Shown: positions 52,688 to 60,789 of the stretch, piece after piece
Layout: every line of letters begins with the position of its first letter
How positions within the stretch are numbered: the first letter of the stretch is position 1
Assembly: GCA_001872285.1 (NCBI GenBank)
Contig: MNXU01000040.1
Span: 1-64,000 of the forward strand
Reading direction: 5' to 3'
Source: Betaproteobacteria bacterium CG2_30_68_42
Lineage (GTDB): Bacteria; Pseudomonadota; Gammaproteobacteria; Burkholderiales; Rhodocyclaceae
DNA: 64,000 nucleotides
Notes under the pieces: model-generated
The model's database searches: none
What the model was told of the DNA's origin: nothing
Seen by the model: only the letters and a program-made list of their open reading frames with translations
Made by a program: the position numbers and the translations under genes

Positions 52688-52807
52688 ATTGTATCGTCCC
52701 GCCCGGCGAACCATCTGCGGCATGTGACGCGCCACCGCCCGCGTGCCCGGAACCCGGTACGATGCGCGAGCTTTCTCACGGGAGGATTTGGTGCACCGCA
52801 GTATAAT
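52688..52807. promoter_or_regulatory. Divergent promoter region (ALDH / acyl-CoA synthetase remnant)
   Basis: A 219-bp intergenic region with a perfect TATAAT on the plus strand (52802-52807), about 70 nt before the remnant's ATG. A minus-strand TACAAT (52688-52693) lies about 31 nt before the aldehyde dehydrogenase ATG. Neither has a strong -35. Confidence 0.4.
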
Positions 52808-52876
52808 GCAATCCATCCAACGCCTGCGCCGCGGCGGCACCTCTCAAGAGGGGGCGGCCAAAGCGGCCTGCGCACC

Positions 52877-54398
52877 ATGACCGGAAGTCACTACCTCGCT
52901 CCGCTGTTCGCGCCGAAGTCAGTCGCCGTGATCGGAGCGAGCGAACGCCCGGAGTCGATCGGCGCCGTCCTCATGCGCAACCTCCTGGAGACGCCCTACG
53001 CCGGCAGGCTGTTCGCCGTCGATCCCGCGCACCGCGAGGTCTTTGGGCTTCCCTGCTTCCCCTCGGTGGAGGAGATCCCGCAGCGGCTCGACCTCGCGGT
53101 GATCGCGACCCCCGCGCCCACCGTCCCGGGCATCATCGAATCCTGCGCGCGGGCCGGAGTCCGGGCGGCGGTGGTGCTCTCGGCCGGCTTTTCGGAAGCC
53201 GGCGCGCGCGGCGAGCAGCTCGAGCGGGCGCTGATCGAGAACGTCCGCCGCCACCGCATCCGGCTCCTCGGCCCCAACTGCCTGGGCGTGATGCGCCCCG
53301 AGATCGGTCTGAACGCGACCTTCGCGCACAGCGGCGCGACTCCGGGCTCGATCGCGCTGATCTCGCAGTCCGGCGCGCTATGCTCGGCGATCCTCGACTG
53401 GGCGCGGCCGAACAACGTTGGCTTCTCCACCGTCATCTCGCTCGGCAGCTCGGGGGACCTGGACTTCGGCGAGATCCTCGACTACCTGGTGAACGATCCG
53501 AAGACCGAAAGCATCTTTCTCTACATCGAGGGCATCCGCCACGCGCGCCGCTTCGTAAGCGCGTTGCGGGCCGCCGCGCGCGGTGATCGAGGTCGCCTCG
53601 GGAAGCGACAAGCCGCTGGTGACCTGCTGGATGGGGGAGGCGCGCGTGCGCGAGGTGCGCGCCCTGTTCAAGAACGCCGGCATACCGACGTTCCGCACCC
53701 CGGAGCCGGCAGTCGAGCTGTTCTCCCACATCTCCGCCTACTATCGCAACCAGCGCCTGCTGATGCAGACGCCGGCGCCGCTGTCGCATCTCGCGAGCCC
53801 CAACGTGGAGAGCGCACGCCTGGTCATCGAGACCGCACTCGCCGAACGGCGCAGCGTGCTCACCGAAATGGAATCGAAGGCGCTGCTCGCGGCCTTCCGC
53901 ATCCCGATCGCGAGCACCGTGGTGGCCCGCTCGGTCACCGAGGCGATGGTGCTCGCCGAGGAGATCGGCCTGCCGTTGGCGATGAAGATCGACTCGCCCC
54001 AGATCACCCACAAGAGCGACTCCGGCGGCGTGAGGCTGAACCTCACCACGCTCCAGTCGGTGCGCTCGGCCTACCAGGACGTCCTCGACGAGGTCCGCCG
54101 CAACCGGCCCGATGCCTCGGTCAACGGAGTCGCGATCGAACCGATGATCCTCAAACCGAACGGGCGCGAGTTCGCCGTGGTGGTGGCCGACGAATGGGCG
54201 CACCGCGGCATCGCGCGCAGGCTCATGGGCCTGCTGATCGAGACGGCACGCGCCAAGGGCCTCAAGTACATGAACGGCGAATTCCTCTCGAGCAACGCGC
54301 GCATGCTCAAGTTCGTGGCCGACCTCGGCTTCGTGCTCTCGAAGAGCAGCGACGATCCCACGGTGGCGAGCGGCGTGCTCGCGCTGCAGGAAGGCTGA
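52877..54398 (+). pseudogene. Decayed acetyl/acyl-CoA synthetase (ADP-forming)/GNAT fusion gene
   Basis: The intact family is about 900 residues: CoA-binding Rossmann domain, succinyl-CoA-ligase-like domain, ATP-grasp and a C-terminal GNAT acetyltransferase (Pat-like). Here frame 1 carries SVAVIGASERPESIGAVLMRN through YIEGIRHARRFVSALRAAAR (about 235 residues). At about 53581 it shifts by +1 to VIEVASGSDKPLVTCWMGEA; the roughly 130 residues normally between are missing. The second frame continues through ITHKSDSGGVRLNL and PNGREFAV. There it joins VVADEWAHRGIARRLM, which is the middle of the GNAT domain, skipping the rest of ATP-grasp and the GNAT N-terminus (about 270 residues). The catalytic domains are incomplete, so the gene is almost certainly non-functional. 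GAGGGGGCGG upstream is its old ribosome-binding site. Confidence 0.85.
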
Positions 54399-54753
54399 CG
54401 GCCGCTCACCGATTTGCCGCACACGTAGATCCGCATGGCCAGCATGCGATCCAGCGACGTGACGATGGGTGCTTCCTGACCGGCGATCAGCAGATTCGCC
54501 AGGGACTCGACGGGGATGCGCAAGGATTTGGCATCAGCGATGATGCCATCCGTGCCCGCTGCGCCGCGTTCTGCCGCAGCTCGAATCGGCGAGAGCAGCG
54601 GTATGACCCCGTTCATCGGCAAGGTCCGGTATTCGTGGTGCGAGGGGGAGCGCGACCTTGTGCATCGCGGACACCGCGCTGAGCGCGGGATCGGACTTGC
54701 CGCAGTGCCGAGCATCCGCCGCCGCGCGGCCACTATCCGAACCACCTGACGAG
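54399..54753. other. Non-coding scar between the pseudogene and the enolase-like cassette
   Basis: 355 bp without a recognisable gene. On the minus strand a stretch reading IPLLSPIRAAAERG, IPVESLANLLIAGQEAPIV and RMLAMRIYVCGK has a protein-like composition but no start, neighbours or family I recognise. It may be the tail of a lost gene. This is the likely left edge of an inserted segment. Confidence 0.35.
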
Positions 54754-56067
54754 TCAGCGGCCTGCGGACGCCGGCGCCTTCGGCCGATTGCAGCCGAACA
54801 CCGCGGCACCGGCGAATCGCGCCCGCCCGCCCAGGCGCTCCTCGATGCGTAGTGCCTCGTTCCACTTGGCCATCCGCTCGCCGCGAGCGAACGCGCCGAC
54901 CTTGATCTGCCCCGCCTGCCAGCCGATCGCCAGATGCACGATCGTCGTGTCCTCGGTCTCGCCCGAGCGCGCCGACACGATGCCGGCGTAGCCCACCGAC
55001 TGCGCCGCCTGCCAGGCCCGCAGCGTCTCGGTGAGCGTGCCGCGCTGGTTCGGCTTGAGCAGCACCGTGTTGGCCGCACCGATCGCCGCGGCTTGTCGCA
55101 CCAGCGGCGCGTGCGACACCAGCAGGTCGTCGCCGACGATCTGCAGCCGGTGCCCGGCGGCTTGGGTGAAGCGCGCGAAGGCCTGCGCGTCGTCTTCGGC
55201 CAACGGGTCTTCGATCGAGACGATCGGGTAGCGGTCGATCCAGCGCAGCAGCAGTTCGATCAAGGCGTCGGAATCGAGCTGCCGCGACTCCAGCGCCAGC
55301 GTGTAGCGACCCTGGCGTCCGAACTCGGAGGCGGCCACGTCGAGGGCGATCGCCACCTGCCCACCGGGTACGAAACCGGCGCGCTCGATGGCCGTCACGA
55401 GCGTTTCGAGCGCCTGCTCGTTGGTGGCGAAGTCAGGCCACCAACCGCCTTCGTCGGCAACGCCGAAACGCGAGCCGCGCTGCTGCATCAACACACCGGC
55501 ACAGCGATAGACCTCCGCGCTCCACTCGATGGCCTGGCCGAAGTCGCGCGCGCCGGGGCAGACGACCATGAAGTCCTGGATATCGATGCGACGGCCGGCA
55601 TGCGCGCCGCCGCCGAAGATCTGAATCTGCGGCAGCGGCAGCATGGTGGCATCGGGCCCACCCAGGTACCGGTACAGCGGCAGGTGCAGCGACGCCGCCG
55701 CCGCATGCGCCGCGGCCATCGACACCGCGAGCGTCGCATTGGCGCCGAGCCGCGTCTTGGCCGGCGTGGCATCGAGGTCGATCAGCCGCTGGTCCAGCCC
55801 GGCCTGGTCGTCGGCAGCGCAGCCGATCACGACGCGCGCGATCTCGCCATTGACGTTTCCCACGGCACCCAGCACATCCAGCCCACCGAAGCGTGCCGTC
55901 GAATCGCGCAGATCGAGCGCCTCGCGCGTGCCCCTGGACGCACCCGCCGGAACGATCGCGCGACCGATCGAGTCGTCCTGCAGCGACACCTCGGCCTCGA
56001 CCGTCGGCCGGCCGCGGCTGTCCCACACGCGCCGGGCGTGGACCGACCGGATGGCGCGACCATTCAT
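54754..56067 (-). CDS. Enolase-superfamily paralogue with altered active-site residues
   Basis: A 437-residue homologue of enolase along its full length: DSRGRPTVEAEV, GASRGTREAL, DEGGWWPDF (E206), ALDVAASEF (D243), SIEDPLAEDD (E286), VGDDLLVSH (D313), LLKPNQRGTLTET (K338), GQIKVGA (K389). Two residues conserved in true enolases differ. The His in the SHRSGETED motif is Ala366 (SARSGETED). The Glu of the DIQEF motif is Asp165 (DIQDF). The metal ligands and the general-base Lys remain, so dehydration of a different 2-phospho acid is plausible. It overlaps the upstream kinase gene by ATGA. Its role in glycolysis is unlikely; related enolase-like enzymes occur in phosphonate and natural-product pathways. 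Confidence 0.85.
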   Translation of the reverse strand: MNGRAIRSVHARRVWDSRGRPTVEAEVSLQDDSIGRAIVPAGASRGTREALDLRDSTARFGGLDVLGAVGNVNGEIARVVIGCAADDQAGLDQRLIDLDATPAKTRLGANATLAVSMAAAHAAAASLHLPLYRYLGGPDATMLPLPQIQIFGGGAHAGRRIDIQDFMVVCPGARDFGQAIEWSAEVYRCAGVLMQQRGSRFGVADEGGWWPDFATNEQALETLVTAIERAGFVPGGQVAIALDVAASEFGRQGRYTLALESRQLDSDALIELLLRWIDRYPIVSIEDPLAEDDAQAFARFTQAAGHRLQIVGDDLLVSHAPLVRQAAAIGAANTVLLKPNQRGTLTETLRAWQAAQSVGYAGIVSARSGETEDTTIVHLAIGWQAGQIKVGAFARGERMAKWNEALRIEERLGGRARFAGAAVFGCNRPKAPASAGR

Positions 56068-57086
56068 GGTCCGAGTTCCTCGCGCCATGCCGCTGCGACC
56101 TGCTGCAGCCGTTCGACCGGCCGGCGCAGCAGCGAGCGCGCCACTTGCCGCACCGCATCGCGCCCGGCGTCCTCGGTGATGTACTCGACAGGAGACTTGC
56201 CGTCGACGCGCGCGAGCAGGAGGCCCGGCAGCAGCGCCGCTGCGCGGCGCTCCAGTGCATCGCGCGGTTCCCAGTCCGCCGCCTGCAGGTAGCCTTCCGA
56301 CAGCGCGTCGAAAGCGGCCAGAAAGGCTGCGGTCGCCGGCACATTCCACAGGCACTTGAGCAGCAGGTGATTGAGGCAGAACGCGAGGTCGAACGCCGGG
56401 TCGCCCCAACACGCGCATTCGGCGTCCAGCAGCACCGGCCCCCGCGGCCCGACGAGGATGTTCTTCGGGCTGACATCCCCATGCACGAGCGCCACGGCAT
56501 GGGCCTGCGTCACCGCCACCAGCCGCAGCAGCGCCGACGCCAGATCGGCATGGCGCCGGGCGGTGGCCACCAGGTAGGGCTCGAGGCGGATGTCGTGGAA
56601 GATCGCGCCAGCGTCGAATTGCGCCGCCAGATCGACGCGCGCCGCCGAGTAGGCATGGATTCGCGCCACGGTGCGGCCCAGCGTGCGAGCGAGCGCCGGG
56701 TCGGCGTTTCCATCGCGCAGGGCATGCTTCCACAGCAGGTAGTCGGGCGGCGGCAGGTAGCCCATCACGAGCACGCCGAGCCCGGGATGCTGGCCGAACA
56801 GCTCCGGTGCGCAGCCCGGGACAGCCTGGTTCGCAACGCGCATCCAGCGCGCTTCGTAGACGTTGCGCTCGATCGGCGCCCACCAATCGGCGAGCACGCG
56901 CAGCTTCGGCAGCGCGCGCTTGACGCACACCGGTCCACGGCAGGTATCGACCCGCCAGATGTCGGACGACACGCCCCCGGCGAGCGGCATTCCGGTCATT
57001 CGGCCGGACCCGGCAAGACCCAGTTCGCGCAAGGCCTGGGCGAACCCGCCGGGGACCGAACGCGACGCGTCAGGCCGCGCCGCCAT
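56064..57086 (-). CDS. APH/choline-kinase-fold phosphotransferase
   Basis: A 340-residue small-molecule kinase. ATP-lobe elements lead to the Brenner motif HGDVSPKNILVG (D204, N209) and the metal-binding Asp in PVLLDAECACWGDPAFDLAFCL (D221). The family phosphorylates hydroxyl groups of sugars, aminoglycosides, choline or homoserine. No aminoglycoside-resistance context. It starts within the 3' end of the ketopantoate-reductase-like gene (17-bp overlap) and ends on the enolase-like start, so all three are translated together. A role in making the phospho-acid substrate of the enolase-like enzyme is an inference from this coupling. Confidence 0.82.
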   Translation of the reverse strand: MAARPDASRSVPGGFAQALRELGLAGSGRMTGMPLAGGVSSDIWRVDTCRGPVCVKRALPKLRVLADWWAPIERNVYEARWMRVANQAVPGCAPELFGQHPGLGVLVMGYLPPPDYLLWKHALRDGNADPALARTLGRTVARIHAYSAARVDLAAQFDAGAIFHDIRLEPYLVATARRHADLASALLRLVAVTQAHAVALVHGDVSPKNILVGPRGPVLLDAECACWGDPAFDLAFCLNHLLLKCLWNVPATAAFLAAFDALSEGYLQAADWEPRDALERRAAALLPGLLLARVDGKSPVEYITEDAGRDAVRQVARSLLRRPVERLQQVAAAWREELGP

Positions 57087-58023
57087 AACCGGCTTCGATC
57101 AGTTTGACCAGCGCATGCAGCGTCTGATTGACCGGGGTGGCGACCCCCCGCTCGCGCCCGCGCCGGGCCACGAATCCGTTCAAGTGGTCGATCTCGGTTG
57201 GCTTGCGCCGGGCCATGTCCTGCGCCGTCGACGAGAACTGATCGGGCATCGCGACGGCGATTCGTTCCATCGCCTCGAGTGACGGTCCGAGCGGCAGCGC
57301 CACATGCTCGGCAGCAGCGAGCGCCACCACTTCGCGCACGATCGCGTGCTGCAGCGCGCGCACCGCCGGCAGCGCGGCCAGTCGCGCGTAGTTGGCCTGC
57401 GCGAGGCCGGAGATCGCGTTGTAGGCGCAGTTCACCATAAGCTTCGACCACAGCTCGGCCGTCACGTCGTCGGCGATGCGCACCGGCACCGCGGCGCCGG
57501 CGAAGAACTCGACCAGCGCCTGTAGCCGGCGGGCCAGCGCCGGGTCGCGCGAGGCTGCCGCGTCGATCGCGCCGATGACCAGGTTGCCGCCACCGTGGTG
57601 CCGCACGCAGCCCGGCTGCGGCATCGCGGTGGCCACGTACACCACCGCGGGAACGACGCTCTGGCGAACGTATTGCGCGATCATCGCGGCGTTCTCTACC
57701 CCGTTCTGCAGGCTCAGCACGAGCGCGCCGGCGTCCAGGTGCGGTGCAAGTTCGCGCGCCACCGCGTCGGTGTCGGAAGACTTGACGCAGAACAGCACCA
57801 GGTCGGCGCCGCGCGCCGCCGCCAGGTCGACGCTCGCCGCGACGCGAACCACCTCCATGCGACCGGCCATCTCGAGCCGCAGGCCGTCGCGTTCGATGGC
57901 CTGCACATGCGCGCGGCGTCCGATCAGCGTCACCCGACGGCCCGCGCGTGCGAGCAGGGCGCCATAGTAGCTGCCGACGGCGCCCGCGCCGACCACGGCA
58001 ACCGAATGGAACGATTCGCTCAT
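57070..58023 (-). CDS. 2-dehydropantoate 2-reductase-like oxidoreductase (PanE/ApbA family)
   Basis: A 317-residue NAD(P)H-dependent reductase. The N-terminal dinucleotide motif is VGAGAVGSYYGALLARAG, followed by FCVKSSDTDAV and LQNGVENAAMI, the family hinge. The C-terminal domain has ELWSKLMVNCAYNAISGL, with the conserved Lys and Asn of PanE, and RKPTEIDHLNGFV. In this cassette it may reduce a 2-keto acid other than ketopantoate. No other pantothenate gene is nearby. Start at ATG 58023; the ribosome-binding site is weak. Confidence 0.85.
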   Translation of the reverse strand: MSESFHSVAVVGAGAVGSYYGALLARAGRRVTLIGRRAHVQAIERDGLRLEMAGRMEVVRVAASVDLAAARGADLVLFCVKSSDTDAVARELAPHLDAGALVLSLQNGVENAAMIAQYVRQSVVPAVVYVATAMPQPGCVRHHGGGNLVIGAIDAAASRDPALARRLQALVEFFAGAAVPVRIADDVTAELWSKLMVNCAYNAISGLAQANYARLAALPAVRALQHAIVREVVALAAAEHVALPLGPSLEAMERIAVAMPDQFSSTAQDMARRKPTEIDHLNGFVARRGRERGVATPVNQTLHALVKLIEAGYGGAA

Positions 58024-58042
58024 CGGCCGGTTCGGGCCACCC

Positions 58043-58216
58043 TCAGGCAGCGTCCACCGAGCGCAGGAAGGCGTCGATGGCGCCGGTATGGGCAGCGGCA
58101 GTGCCGACTCGCGCGTTGACCTCGCCATGCGACAAGTCCTGCGGCAGCACGCCGCGAATGCAAGGCTTGCTCCCCATCACGACGCTGTCGAAGGGTATGC
58201 GATCGAGGTTCTTCAT
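58043..58216 (-). CDS. Chimeric small ORF with a DUF433 N-terminus
   Basis: 57 codons, starting MKNLDRIPFDSVVMGSKPCI, which is the start of DUF433-family (VapB-type antitoxin-like) proteins: the LDRI..D..VMGGKPCIRG signature. After about residue 22 the sequence departs from the family (VLPQDLSHGEVNARVGTAAA and so on) and stops after 57 residues. The tail has no Arg/Glu DNA-binding helices expected of DUF433. GGCGAG precedes the ATG, and TATACT lies upstream. Likely a truncated host gene fused to incoming DNA at the right edge of the enolase-like cassette. Whether it is translated is unknown. Confidence 0.6.
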   Translation of the reverse strand: MKNLDRIPFDSVVMGSKPCIRGVLPQDLSHGEVNARVGTAAAHTGAIDAFLRSVDAA

Positions 58217-58252
58217 CTCGCCGTCCGCCTTTGTCGAAACCGGTTCATGGCA

Positions 58253-58258
58253 AGTATA
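58253..58258 (-). promoter_or_regulatory. -10 box upstream of the DUF433 remnant and enolase-like cassette
   Basis: TATACT on the minus strand, about 37 nt before the chimeric ORF. If active it would now drive the three-gene cassette. Confidence 0.45.
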
Positions 58259-58365
58259 CCCGGCCGCTTTCGACGCAACGTTCCCGAAACCGCTGGCGCC
58301 GGACCGTTGTCAGTGGCGGGCCGCGGGGCGAGAATGGCGGCATCCAGCCACGCGGAGCCACCACC

Positions 58366-59142
58366 ATGACGAATCCCGCCGAGCCCCCGGCACGAACCGC
58401 AGCCGATGCGCCTGCACCGGGCAATCCGCTTTACCGCCGCCCGGTCGCGATCGATCGCGGCAGGCACCAGGACCTTCGCATCGCGCGACTCGCCCGGTTC
58501 GACTTCAGCGCCGGCGCACAGTCGGTGCCGGTGACCGCGAGCGAGTTCAAGGAGGCGCACAAGGAGTTCCCGCTCGTGTTCCTGCGACCCGGCGAAGGCC
58601 GGATCGTGCCGGCCGTACTGCTGGGGCTGCGCGCCGCGGAGAACCTGTTCGTCGGCGCGCGCGGCGAATGGCTGGCGCGCTACCTGCCGGCCTTCATCCG
58701 CCGCTACCCGTTCATCTTCGCCGAGGGCGCGGGCGGGCGCCTGGCCCTGTGCTTCGACGAGGCCTGGGAGGGCGTGGGCGCAGCCGATGGCGAGCGGCTG
58801 TTCGAGAACGGTGCCGAGACCCCCTACCTCAAGGGCATGCTCGACTTCATGTCCGCCTATCAGGGCGAGTTCCTCGCCACCGAACGTTTCTGCAGGCAGC
58901 TCGATGAACTCGGGCTGTTCACACCGATGTCCGCAGCCGCCGAGCTGAAGACCGGGCAGAAATTCGTCGTGCAGAACGTCCTGGTCGTCGACGAGGCGAA
59001 ATTCAAGGCGCTCGACGCGGCGGTGGCGAGCCGCATGTTCCAGTCCGGAGAACTCGGGCTGGTCTATGCACATCTGATGTCGCTGTCCAACCTGGGGCGG
59101 CTGATCGACCTGCTCGCACCCCGGCTCGCGGCGCTGCAGTGA
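58366..59142 (+). CDS. SapC family protein
   Basis: A 258-residue protein of the SapC type, a family of unknown biochemical role named from S-layer-linked genes. Blocks: NPLYRRPVAIDRGRHQDLRI, ASEFKEAHKEFPLVFLRP, LGLRAAENLFVGARGEWLARYLPAFIRRYPF, and the closing FVVQNVLVVDEAKFKALD. No signal peptide or membrane helix was seen. GCGGAG precedes the ATG. Its stop overlaps the start of the glycosylase gene (GTGA). Confidence 0.82.
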   Translation: MTNPAEPPARTAADAPAPGNPLYRRPVAIDRGRHQDLRIARLARFDFSAGAQSVPVTASEFKEAHKEFPLVFLRPGEGRIVPAVLLGLRAAENLFVGARGEWLARYLPAFIRRYPFIFAEGAGGRLALCFDEAWEGVGAADGERLFENGAETPYLKGMLDFMSAYQGEFLATERFCRQLDELGLFTPMSAAAELKTGQKFVVQNVLVVDEAKFKALDAAVASRMFQSGELGLVYAHLMSLSNLGRLIDLLAPRLAALQ

Positions 59143-59717
59143 CTCCCCGGAAGCCCGGCCGCTGTGCCTGGGCGCTCGCCGACCCGCTGCTCGCCGCCTA
59201 CCACGACGCCGAGTGGGGCGTAGCGGTGCATGACGACCGCCGCCTGTTCGAGTTCCTGGTGCTGGAGGGCGCGCAGGCGGGCCTTTCCTGGCTCACCATC
59301 CTGCGCAGGCGCGAGGGCTACCGGCGTGCGTTCGCGAACTTCGATCCTGAGCGCGTCGCGCGCTTCGGCGAGCGCGACCGGGCGCGCCTTCTCGCCGATC
59401 CGGGCATCGTCCGCAACCGCGCCAAGATCGGCTCGGCGATCGCCAACGCGCGGGCCTTTCTCGCCATCCGGGAGGAATTCGGCTCCTTCGACGCCTACCA
59501 GTGGCGCTTCGTCGATGGCGCGCCGATCCGCAATCGCTGGGCCGAAGCGGCGCAGATTCCGGCGAGCACGCCGCAGTCCGATGCGATGAGCCGCGACCTC
59601 CGGCGCCGCGGCTTCAGCTTCGTCGGCCCCACCATCTGCTATGCCCACATGCAGGCGGTCGGCATGGTCAATGACCACGTCATCGACTGCTTCCGCCACG
59701 CGCAGCTGGCCCGCTGA
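59139..59717 (+). CDS. tag: DNA-3-methyladenine glycosylase I
   Basis: Excises 3-methyladenine from alkylated DNA. The family's opening RCAWALADPLLAAYHDAEWG is present, including the N-terminal zinc Cys and His. LEGAQAGLSWLTILRRREGYR, SFVGPTICYAHMQAVGMVNDH and HVIDCFRH supply the substrate pocket and the second zinc pair. 192 residues, normal length. GTG start coupled to sapC. Confidence 0.95.
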   Translation: MTPRKPGRCAWALADPLLAAYHDAEWGVAVHDDRRLFEFLVLEGAQAGLSWLTILRRREGYRRAFANFDPERVARFGERDRARLLADPGIVRNRAKIGSAIANARAFLAIREEFGSFDAYQWRFVDGAPIRNRWAEAAQIPASTPQSDAMSRDLRRRGFSFVGPTICYAHMQAVGMVNDHVIDCFRHAQLAR

Positions 59718-59724
59718 GCCGCGC

Positions 59725-60789
59725 TCACAGGCGCAGCGCGCCGGCGTAGCCGGTCAGCTCGAGATGGCCGCGGCCCAGTTCGCGGCCGCCCTCGTAGGCG
59801 CGCACCGCGCCTTCCCAGTAGAAACCGCCGGTGCTTCGGCGTGCGTCGACCTCCTGGTCGTCCATCAGCGGGCGCAGCTCCACGCTGTGGTCCGGAACGC
59901 GGAGCATCATCCCGATGGGATACTCCGCGAGGCTGCGCGCAGAGCGCCACAGGCGCAGGGGCTCGAAGGCGAGCTCGCCGGGATCGAGCGCACGCGACGC
60001 CCCGCCCGGCGCGCGCAGCGTTCCCCCGGCCCACAGGGTCCTGCCGTCGCTCCCGCGCAGGCGAAACGCCATCCAGGCCGATCCGTCCGCCAGATTCAGT
60101 CCGACCCAGTCCCAGCCCACCGCGCCACCCGAGAGCAGCTCGCTCGACCATTCGTGATCGAGCCATGCGAGACCCGACACGCCGGCGCTTCGGCCGGCGC
60201 GGGCGACCGAGCCGCTCACGCGCAACTGCGGCTCGCTGTAGTAGTAGCTGGCCGCGCGCGGATCGATTCCCTTGCGGCTGTAACCCGCTTCCCCCTGCGG
60301 CAGGATCTCCTGGCTGCGGGCGAGCTGGAGTTCCAGTGCGAAAGTCCCGGCGTCTGCGCGCGCGCGGTAGCCGTCCGCGGTCTGATCGAGCGACCAGTCG
60401 CCGATCCACACGCCGGTGCGCTCCCGTCGCGCCCCGGCCAGCTCGAAACCGGCGCGCGCGCTGCGCTCCGCGGTGAGCAGGCGGTGCTCGCGGGGATCGG
60501 CCAGCGCGGCGTGCGCGAACAGGATCTCGCGCGGCGCGAACCGGCTCGGATTGTCGCCGGCAATGCCCGGGGCGACCCGGAAGAAGGTGATCTGGAAGCC
60601 GTTCGGCGCGCCGGCGGCGGAATCGATCCAGCCGGTCACGTACCACCACTCGATGCGGAAATCGGGATGCGCACCCTGGTCGCGCGGGAAGACGAGCGGA
60701 ATGCCCGGCCGAACCGCTGCGAAATGCGCCGCCCGCGCGAGCCGGACGGCGGCGGCCAACGACAGGCACAGGAAAGCGCGGCGGCGCAT
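59725..60789 (-). CDS. CrtC/AttH-like lipocalin-fold protein
   Basis: A 354-residue protein with an N-terminal signal sequence (RRRAFLCLSLAAAVRLARA). It belongs to the carotenoid 1,2-hydratase/hydroxyneurosporene-synthase-like (AttH) fold: FPRDQGAHPDFRIEWWYVTGW, FQITFFR, HAALADPREHRLLTAERSAR, YYYSEPQLRVSG, GLAWLDHEWSSELL, and the C-terminal Trp-rich beta strands. Most such proteins are not carotenoid enzymes. It lies 5 bp downstream of the FtsX-like permease, so it probably acts with that exporter on a lipophilic substrate. This last point is inferred from the operon. Confidence 0.85.
   Translation of the reverse strand: MRRRAFLCLSLAAAVRLARAAHFAAVRPGIPLVFPRDQGAHPDFRIEWWYVTGWIDSAAGAPNGFQITFFRVAPGIAGDNPSRFAPREILFAHAALADPREHRLLTAERSARAGFELAGARRERTGVWIGDWSLDQTADGYRARADAGTFALELQLARSQEILPQGEAGYSRKGIDPRAASYYYSEPQLRVSGSVARAGRSAGVSGLAWLDHEWSSELLSGGAVGWDWVGLNLADGSAWMAFRLRGSDGRTLWAGGTLRAPGGASRALDPGELAFEPLRLWRSARSLAEYPIGMMLRVPDHSVELRPLMDDQEVDARRSTGGFYWEGAVRAYEGGRELGRGHLELTGYAGALRL

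Follow-up and report, generated by a model that had tools for sequence, protein, structure and literature searches.

Chimeric open reading frames (ORFs) made by deletion have been described in decaying bacterial DNA, for example in Rickettsia. A literature search for deletion-made chimeric ORFs in Rickettsia returned no paper of this kind. Among the gene families that meet at the locus described here, DUF433 (PF04255, COG2442) proteins are antitoxin-like; passages of two papers describe PIN-COG2442 pairs as toxin-antitoxin loci (PMC3834315, PMC2701414), and the former reports that a DUF433 (COG2442) antitoxin activates its own operon. Our literature search found no paper treating DUF433 together with DUF5615. 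A further paper contends that numerous presumed pseudogenes of bacteria are in fact genuine genes (PMC11017572), a point that counts against interpreting a short ORF as decay.

We analyzed a 64,000-nucleotide stretch of DNA (the window) and confirmed in it a 57-codon ORF with an ATG start on the minus strand. This ORF consists of 22 codons of a DUF433 gene followed by 35 codons and the stop of a hydrolase gene, and the two meet at 58150/58151. It is very probably a scar of ordinary gene decay, left by a deletion that fused the remnants of two genes and kept the frame by chance, and not the edge of a cassette. The ORF and its parts are as follows.

58043..58216 (-): chimeric ORF, 57 aa; both parts fused only here among 395 genomes of the family
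58151..58216 (-): start of a former DUF433 gene (22 codons), from a profile match and 74% identity to G147, a DUF433 gene by Pfam
58043..58150 (-): end of a former BD-FAE-type alpha/beta hydrolase gene (35 codons plus stop), from a profile match; family named from L004
58253..58258 (-): TATACT, putative -10-like box left from the DUF433 gene (weakly supported), 42 nt upstream of the ATG

All six reading frames of the window were searched with a DUF433 profile built on 19 sequences of the same bacterial family, which represent 18 genes because one occurs twice. The single significant match was to residues 1-23 of the chimeric ORF (E 5.7e-5; next best 0.63), and the first 22 residues scored 21.9 bits against the profile when the best of 5000 shuffles reached 11.4. 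The initial annotation had described a short ORF with a DUF433-like start, which is present, and a truncated DUF433 gene, which is borne out. The closest single match, in genome G147, shares 74% identity across these residues and is a whole DUF433 gene (Pfam, E 1.2e-22) with a DUF5615 (PIN-like) gene immediately downstream, whereas the next gene downstream of the remnant is panE and no PIN-like partner adjoins it. The ORF holds no complete 56-position DUF433 (PF04255) domain above the Pfam cut-off, nor does its own genome hold any DUF433 match above it. The N-terminal signature RIT.....GG[KR]PCIRG can be recognized in the ORF, but P, S and S replace the conserved residues at three places. Directly observed in this way, 3 of 10 conserved columns are broken (20 DUF433 proteins compared), in a set that was picked by motif, so that the conservation of some retained columns is in part a result of that choice and two of the columns counted as conserved were favored; among the broken ones, the T and the P lie outside the selection pattern and the second G position allowed several letters.

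The frame had been thought to switch to unrelated sequence after the DUF433 start. Instead, from residue 23 onward it encodes the C-terminus of an alpha/beta hydrolase: a profile of 27 orthologs, run against the six frames of the window, gave one significant match, to residues 23-56 (E 1.2e-8; next best E 3.5). This half carries the C-terminal catalytic-His motif and the stop, and the His column is kept, while 4 of 9 conserved columns are visibly broken (27 hydrolases compared). The parent hydrolase is full length in relatives, the G007 copy being a 317-residue BD-FAE/Abhydrolase_3 protein. In the window's six frames the tail alone was found, with neither the nucleophile region nor the rest of the fold, and a search of the own genome at E <= 1e-10 detected no intact copy, just a 34% relative over residues 62-213 of the G007 protein. 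With one significant match for each of the two profiles, the ORF is therefore a fusion of both genes joined at 58150/58151, an identity and a join that are seen directly, and each of the two different parent genes is intact elsewhere. Pfam and NCBIfam assign no family to the 57-residue ORF because mere fragments remain.

One alignment, to G007, spans ORF residues 5-57, as though the entire ORF were a hydrolase tail. We rejected this possibility: the 27-sequence profile starts at residue 23, and residues 1-23 match DUF433 at 74% identity. The extension of the G007 alignment past residue 23 towards the ORF start is read as a chance alignment, because a gap is needed there and the DUF433 match is much better.

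When the whole ORF was searched against 395 genomes of the same family (E <= 0.001), matches were found at 36 places in 34 genomes, its own included. Besides its own place, 3 lie on the DUF433 end (residues 1-23, 1-44 and 2-24) and 32 on the hydrolase end, 31 of which start at residues 17-23 and one, in G007, at residue 5. A plasmid search gave 13 records, every one at E 0.08 or worse and mostly DUF433 genes matching the first part of the ORF. The search of the family genomes bears on whether the 57-residue product could be a functional new small protein born of the fusion, as the frame open from the ATG and the -10 box upstream would allow. That is very unlikely, as the fusion is absent from all other genomes among the 395, neither half contains a whole domain, and conserved positions of both are lost.

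The surroundings of the ORF comprise an intact operon on the same strand and several further genes or gene remains.

52877..54398 (+): acetate-CoA ligase/ATP-grasp/GNAT gene broken into three pieces by two internal gaps, from comparison with an intact relative
54395..54595 (-): C-terminal fragment of narH (nitrate reductase beta); Nitr_red_bet_C, E 2.1e-17
54754..56028 (-): second enolase of the genome; Pfam/NCBIfam and relatives
56064..57086 (-): APH-family kinase; Pfam and relatives
57070..58023 (-): panE-family reductase, intact, first operon gene after the chimeric ORF; Pfam/NCBIfam, 76% to L053
58366..59142 (+): sapC; Pfam SapC, E 1.6e-66
59139..59717 (+): tag (3-methyladenine DNA glycosylase), right synteny anchor; Pfam E 1.7e-82 and synteny

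The start of panE lies 19 bases past the hydrolase stop. The order panE-APH-enolase recurs at 39 of the 80 panE loci kept from 446 relatives found; the other loci comprise 2 with one partner, ending ~1.1 kb on, 3 without room and 36 without partners. Separately, the operon at 54754-58023 (-) might encode a pathway that converts a keto acid into phosphoenolpyruvate by way of a reductase, a sugar-acid kinase and an enolase.

The site near 58150 had been put forward as the junction of an insertion, with a host DUF433 gene fused to the incoming segment and sapC as the host flank. A tag match was present in 143 of 199 genomes, and at 16 of 29 tag loci the ligase/GNAT gene, on the same strand as tag, ends <1 kb before it. 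GNAT and tag are 4.7 kb apart in the window, and between them lie the narH fragment, the three operon genes, the chimeric ORF and sapC. At none of 29 sapC loci does tag adjoin sapC, and sapC occurs in none of the 29 tag loci (flanks of at most ~1.5 kb each side). Between GNAT and tag, DNA was thus probably gained or rearranged, and on the right this material is bounded by tag (59.14 kb), past sapC, rather than at 58.15 kb. Because the 4.7-kb stretch includes sapC, sapC is no host flank and 58150 no edge. Two former genes do join there, but the neighbor of the DUF433 piece is the end of another ordinary gene with its stop, not an incoming segment. In the window sapC overlaps the start of tag, a pairing unique to it among these loci. 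In G048, a hydrolase gene and a sapC lie ~6 kb apart on the same contig, presumably by chance.

Insertion of a panE-APH-enolase cassette into a host DUF433 gene, with 58150 as the right-hand junction, would fit both the extra DNA that parts GNAT from tag here and the variable surroundings of the operon in other genomes (gene lists, five loci). It would also call for operon sequence at the junction, whereas the DUF433 piece abuts the hydrolase C-terminus. Moreover, among the 80 panE loci, of which some include little flanking DNA, none has a hydrolase or DUF433 match, and no terminal repeats were found in 52800-59800, which holds just imperfect short repeats. No uninterrupted (empty) DUF433 site was seen in the loci examined, the 41 genomes compared including no other species of the genus. 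We consider such an insertion improbable.

A decay scar is in keeping with other gene remains observed within 6 kb of the chimeric ORF, beyond the intact operon: the narH fragment and the gapped ligase/GNAT gene. Aligned to an intact relative, the three pieces of the latter correspond to its residues 3-237, 398-597 and 822-895; the first piece is out of frame with the second and third, one of the gaps shifting the frame. A full-length 42% relative lies on contig C21 of the same genome. At the gap sites, relatives carry short words common to the left and the right edge (GCGAG in L223). Apart from the narH fragment, the genome has no Nitr_red_bet_C match at E <= 1, and it has apparently lost nitrate reductase beta. 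We scanned 30 other ORFs of the window, and 28 have Pfam matches at 1e-5, most over near-whole domains (2 have none); judged within the window, decay therefore seems local. These remains also bear on whether the join is an assembly artefact, a concern in a draft genome of 95 contigs. Such an error is highly improbable, since conserved residues are lost in both halves, as in old remains, and decay shows separately in the narH fragment and the split ligase/GNAT gene.

We propose that the ancestor carried, on the minus strand, an antitoxin-like DUF433 gene and then a hydrolase gene nearer panE. A deletion would have taken most of the DUF433 gene, any DNA between and all of the hydrolase gene save its last 35 codons, and the remnants would have been joined in frame by chance. 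We infer one deletion instead of another form of end joining, possibly guided by short repeats; deletion is the simplest reading, and other kinds of end joining are possible too. In no genome among the loci examined, several of which include little flanking DNA, do DUF433 and hydrolase genes lie side by side, and the ancestral order is unproven for this reason.

Upstream of the ORF, the "usable promoter" of the initial annotation was upheld in its -10 box (TATACT) and not by a sigma-70 scan of 58000-58450, which called no minus-strand promoter pair and whose one match faces sapC. The two closest DUF433 genes have similar boxes before their starts (G147, TATACT at 37 nt; G355, TATAAT at 36 nt), and 8 of 20 DUF433 upstream regions (19 distinct) contain a box matching at 5 or more of its 6 positions, versus 7% of shuffles, a weak comparison. 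The old DUF433 promoter had also been said to face the cassette: the upstream region does point at panE-APH-enolase, and the promoter itself is suggested by the -10 box. The DUF433 promoter region may now read into these three genes. That the deletion placed panE, the kinase and the enolase downstream of a promoter that once served a DUF433 antitoxin-like operon, its regulator now lost, is a tentative idea that we hold to be rather unlikely. If true, a metabolic operon would have been rewired through the loss of a toxin-antitoxin-like pair.

Altogether, the locus calls for caution, as a short ORF may combine a credible start, a -10 box and half of a known domain and yet be the fossil of two dead genes. 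Such remnants record past rearrangement, and here the promoter of a vanished antitoxin-like gene may have passed to a metabolic operon.

Compared with DUF433 (PF04255, COG2442) proteins, the ORF is alike in its first 22-23 residues, and the two closest genes have a -10-like box about as far from the start; unlike these proteins, it lacks everything past residue 23 and the PIN-like neighbor. With BD-FAE/Abhydrolase_3 hydrolases (PF20434, PF07859), it shares the C-terminal SHGE-N stretch, to near the end, but keeps the last 35 codons only. It also resembles the chimeric ORFs that deletion makes in decaying bacterial DNA, with which it has in common the joined unrelated fragments, the lost conserved positions and the remains nearby, the sole difference being that its frame is still open from ATG to stop.
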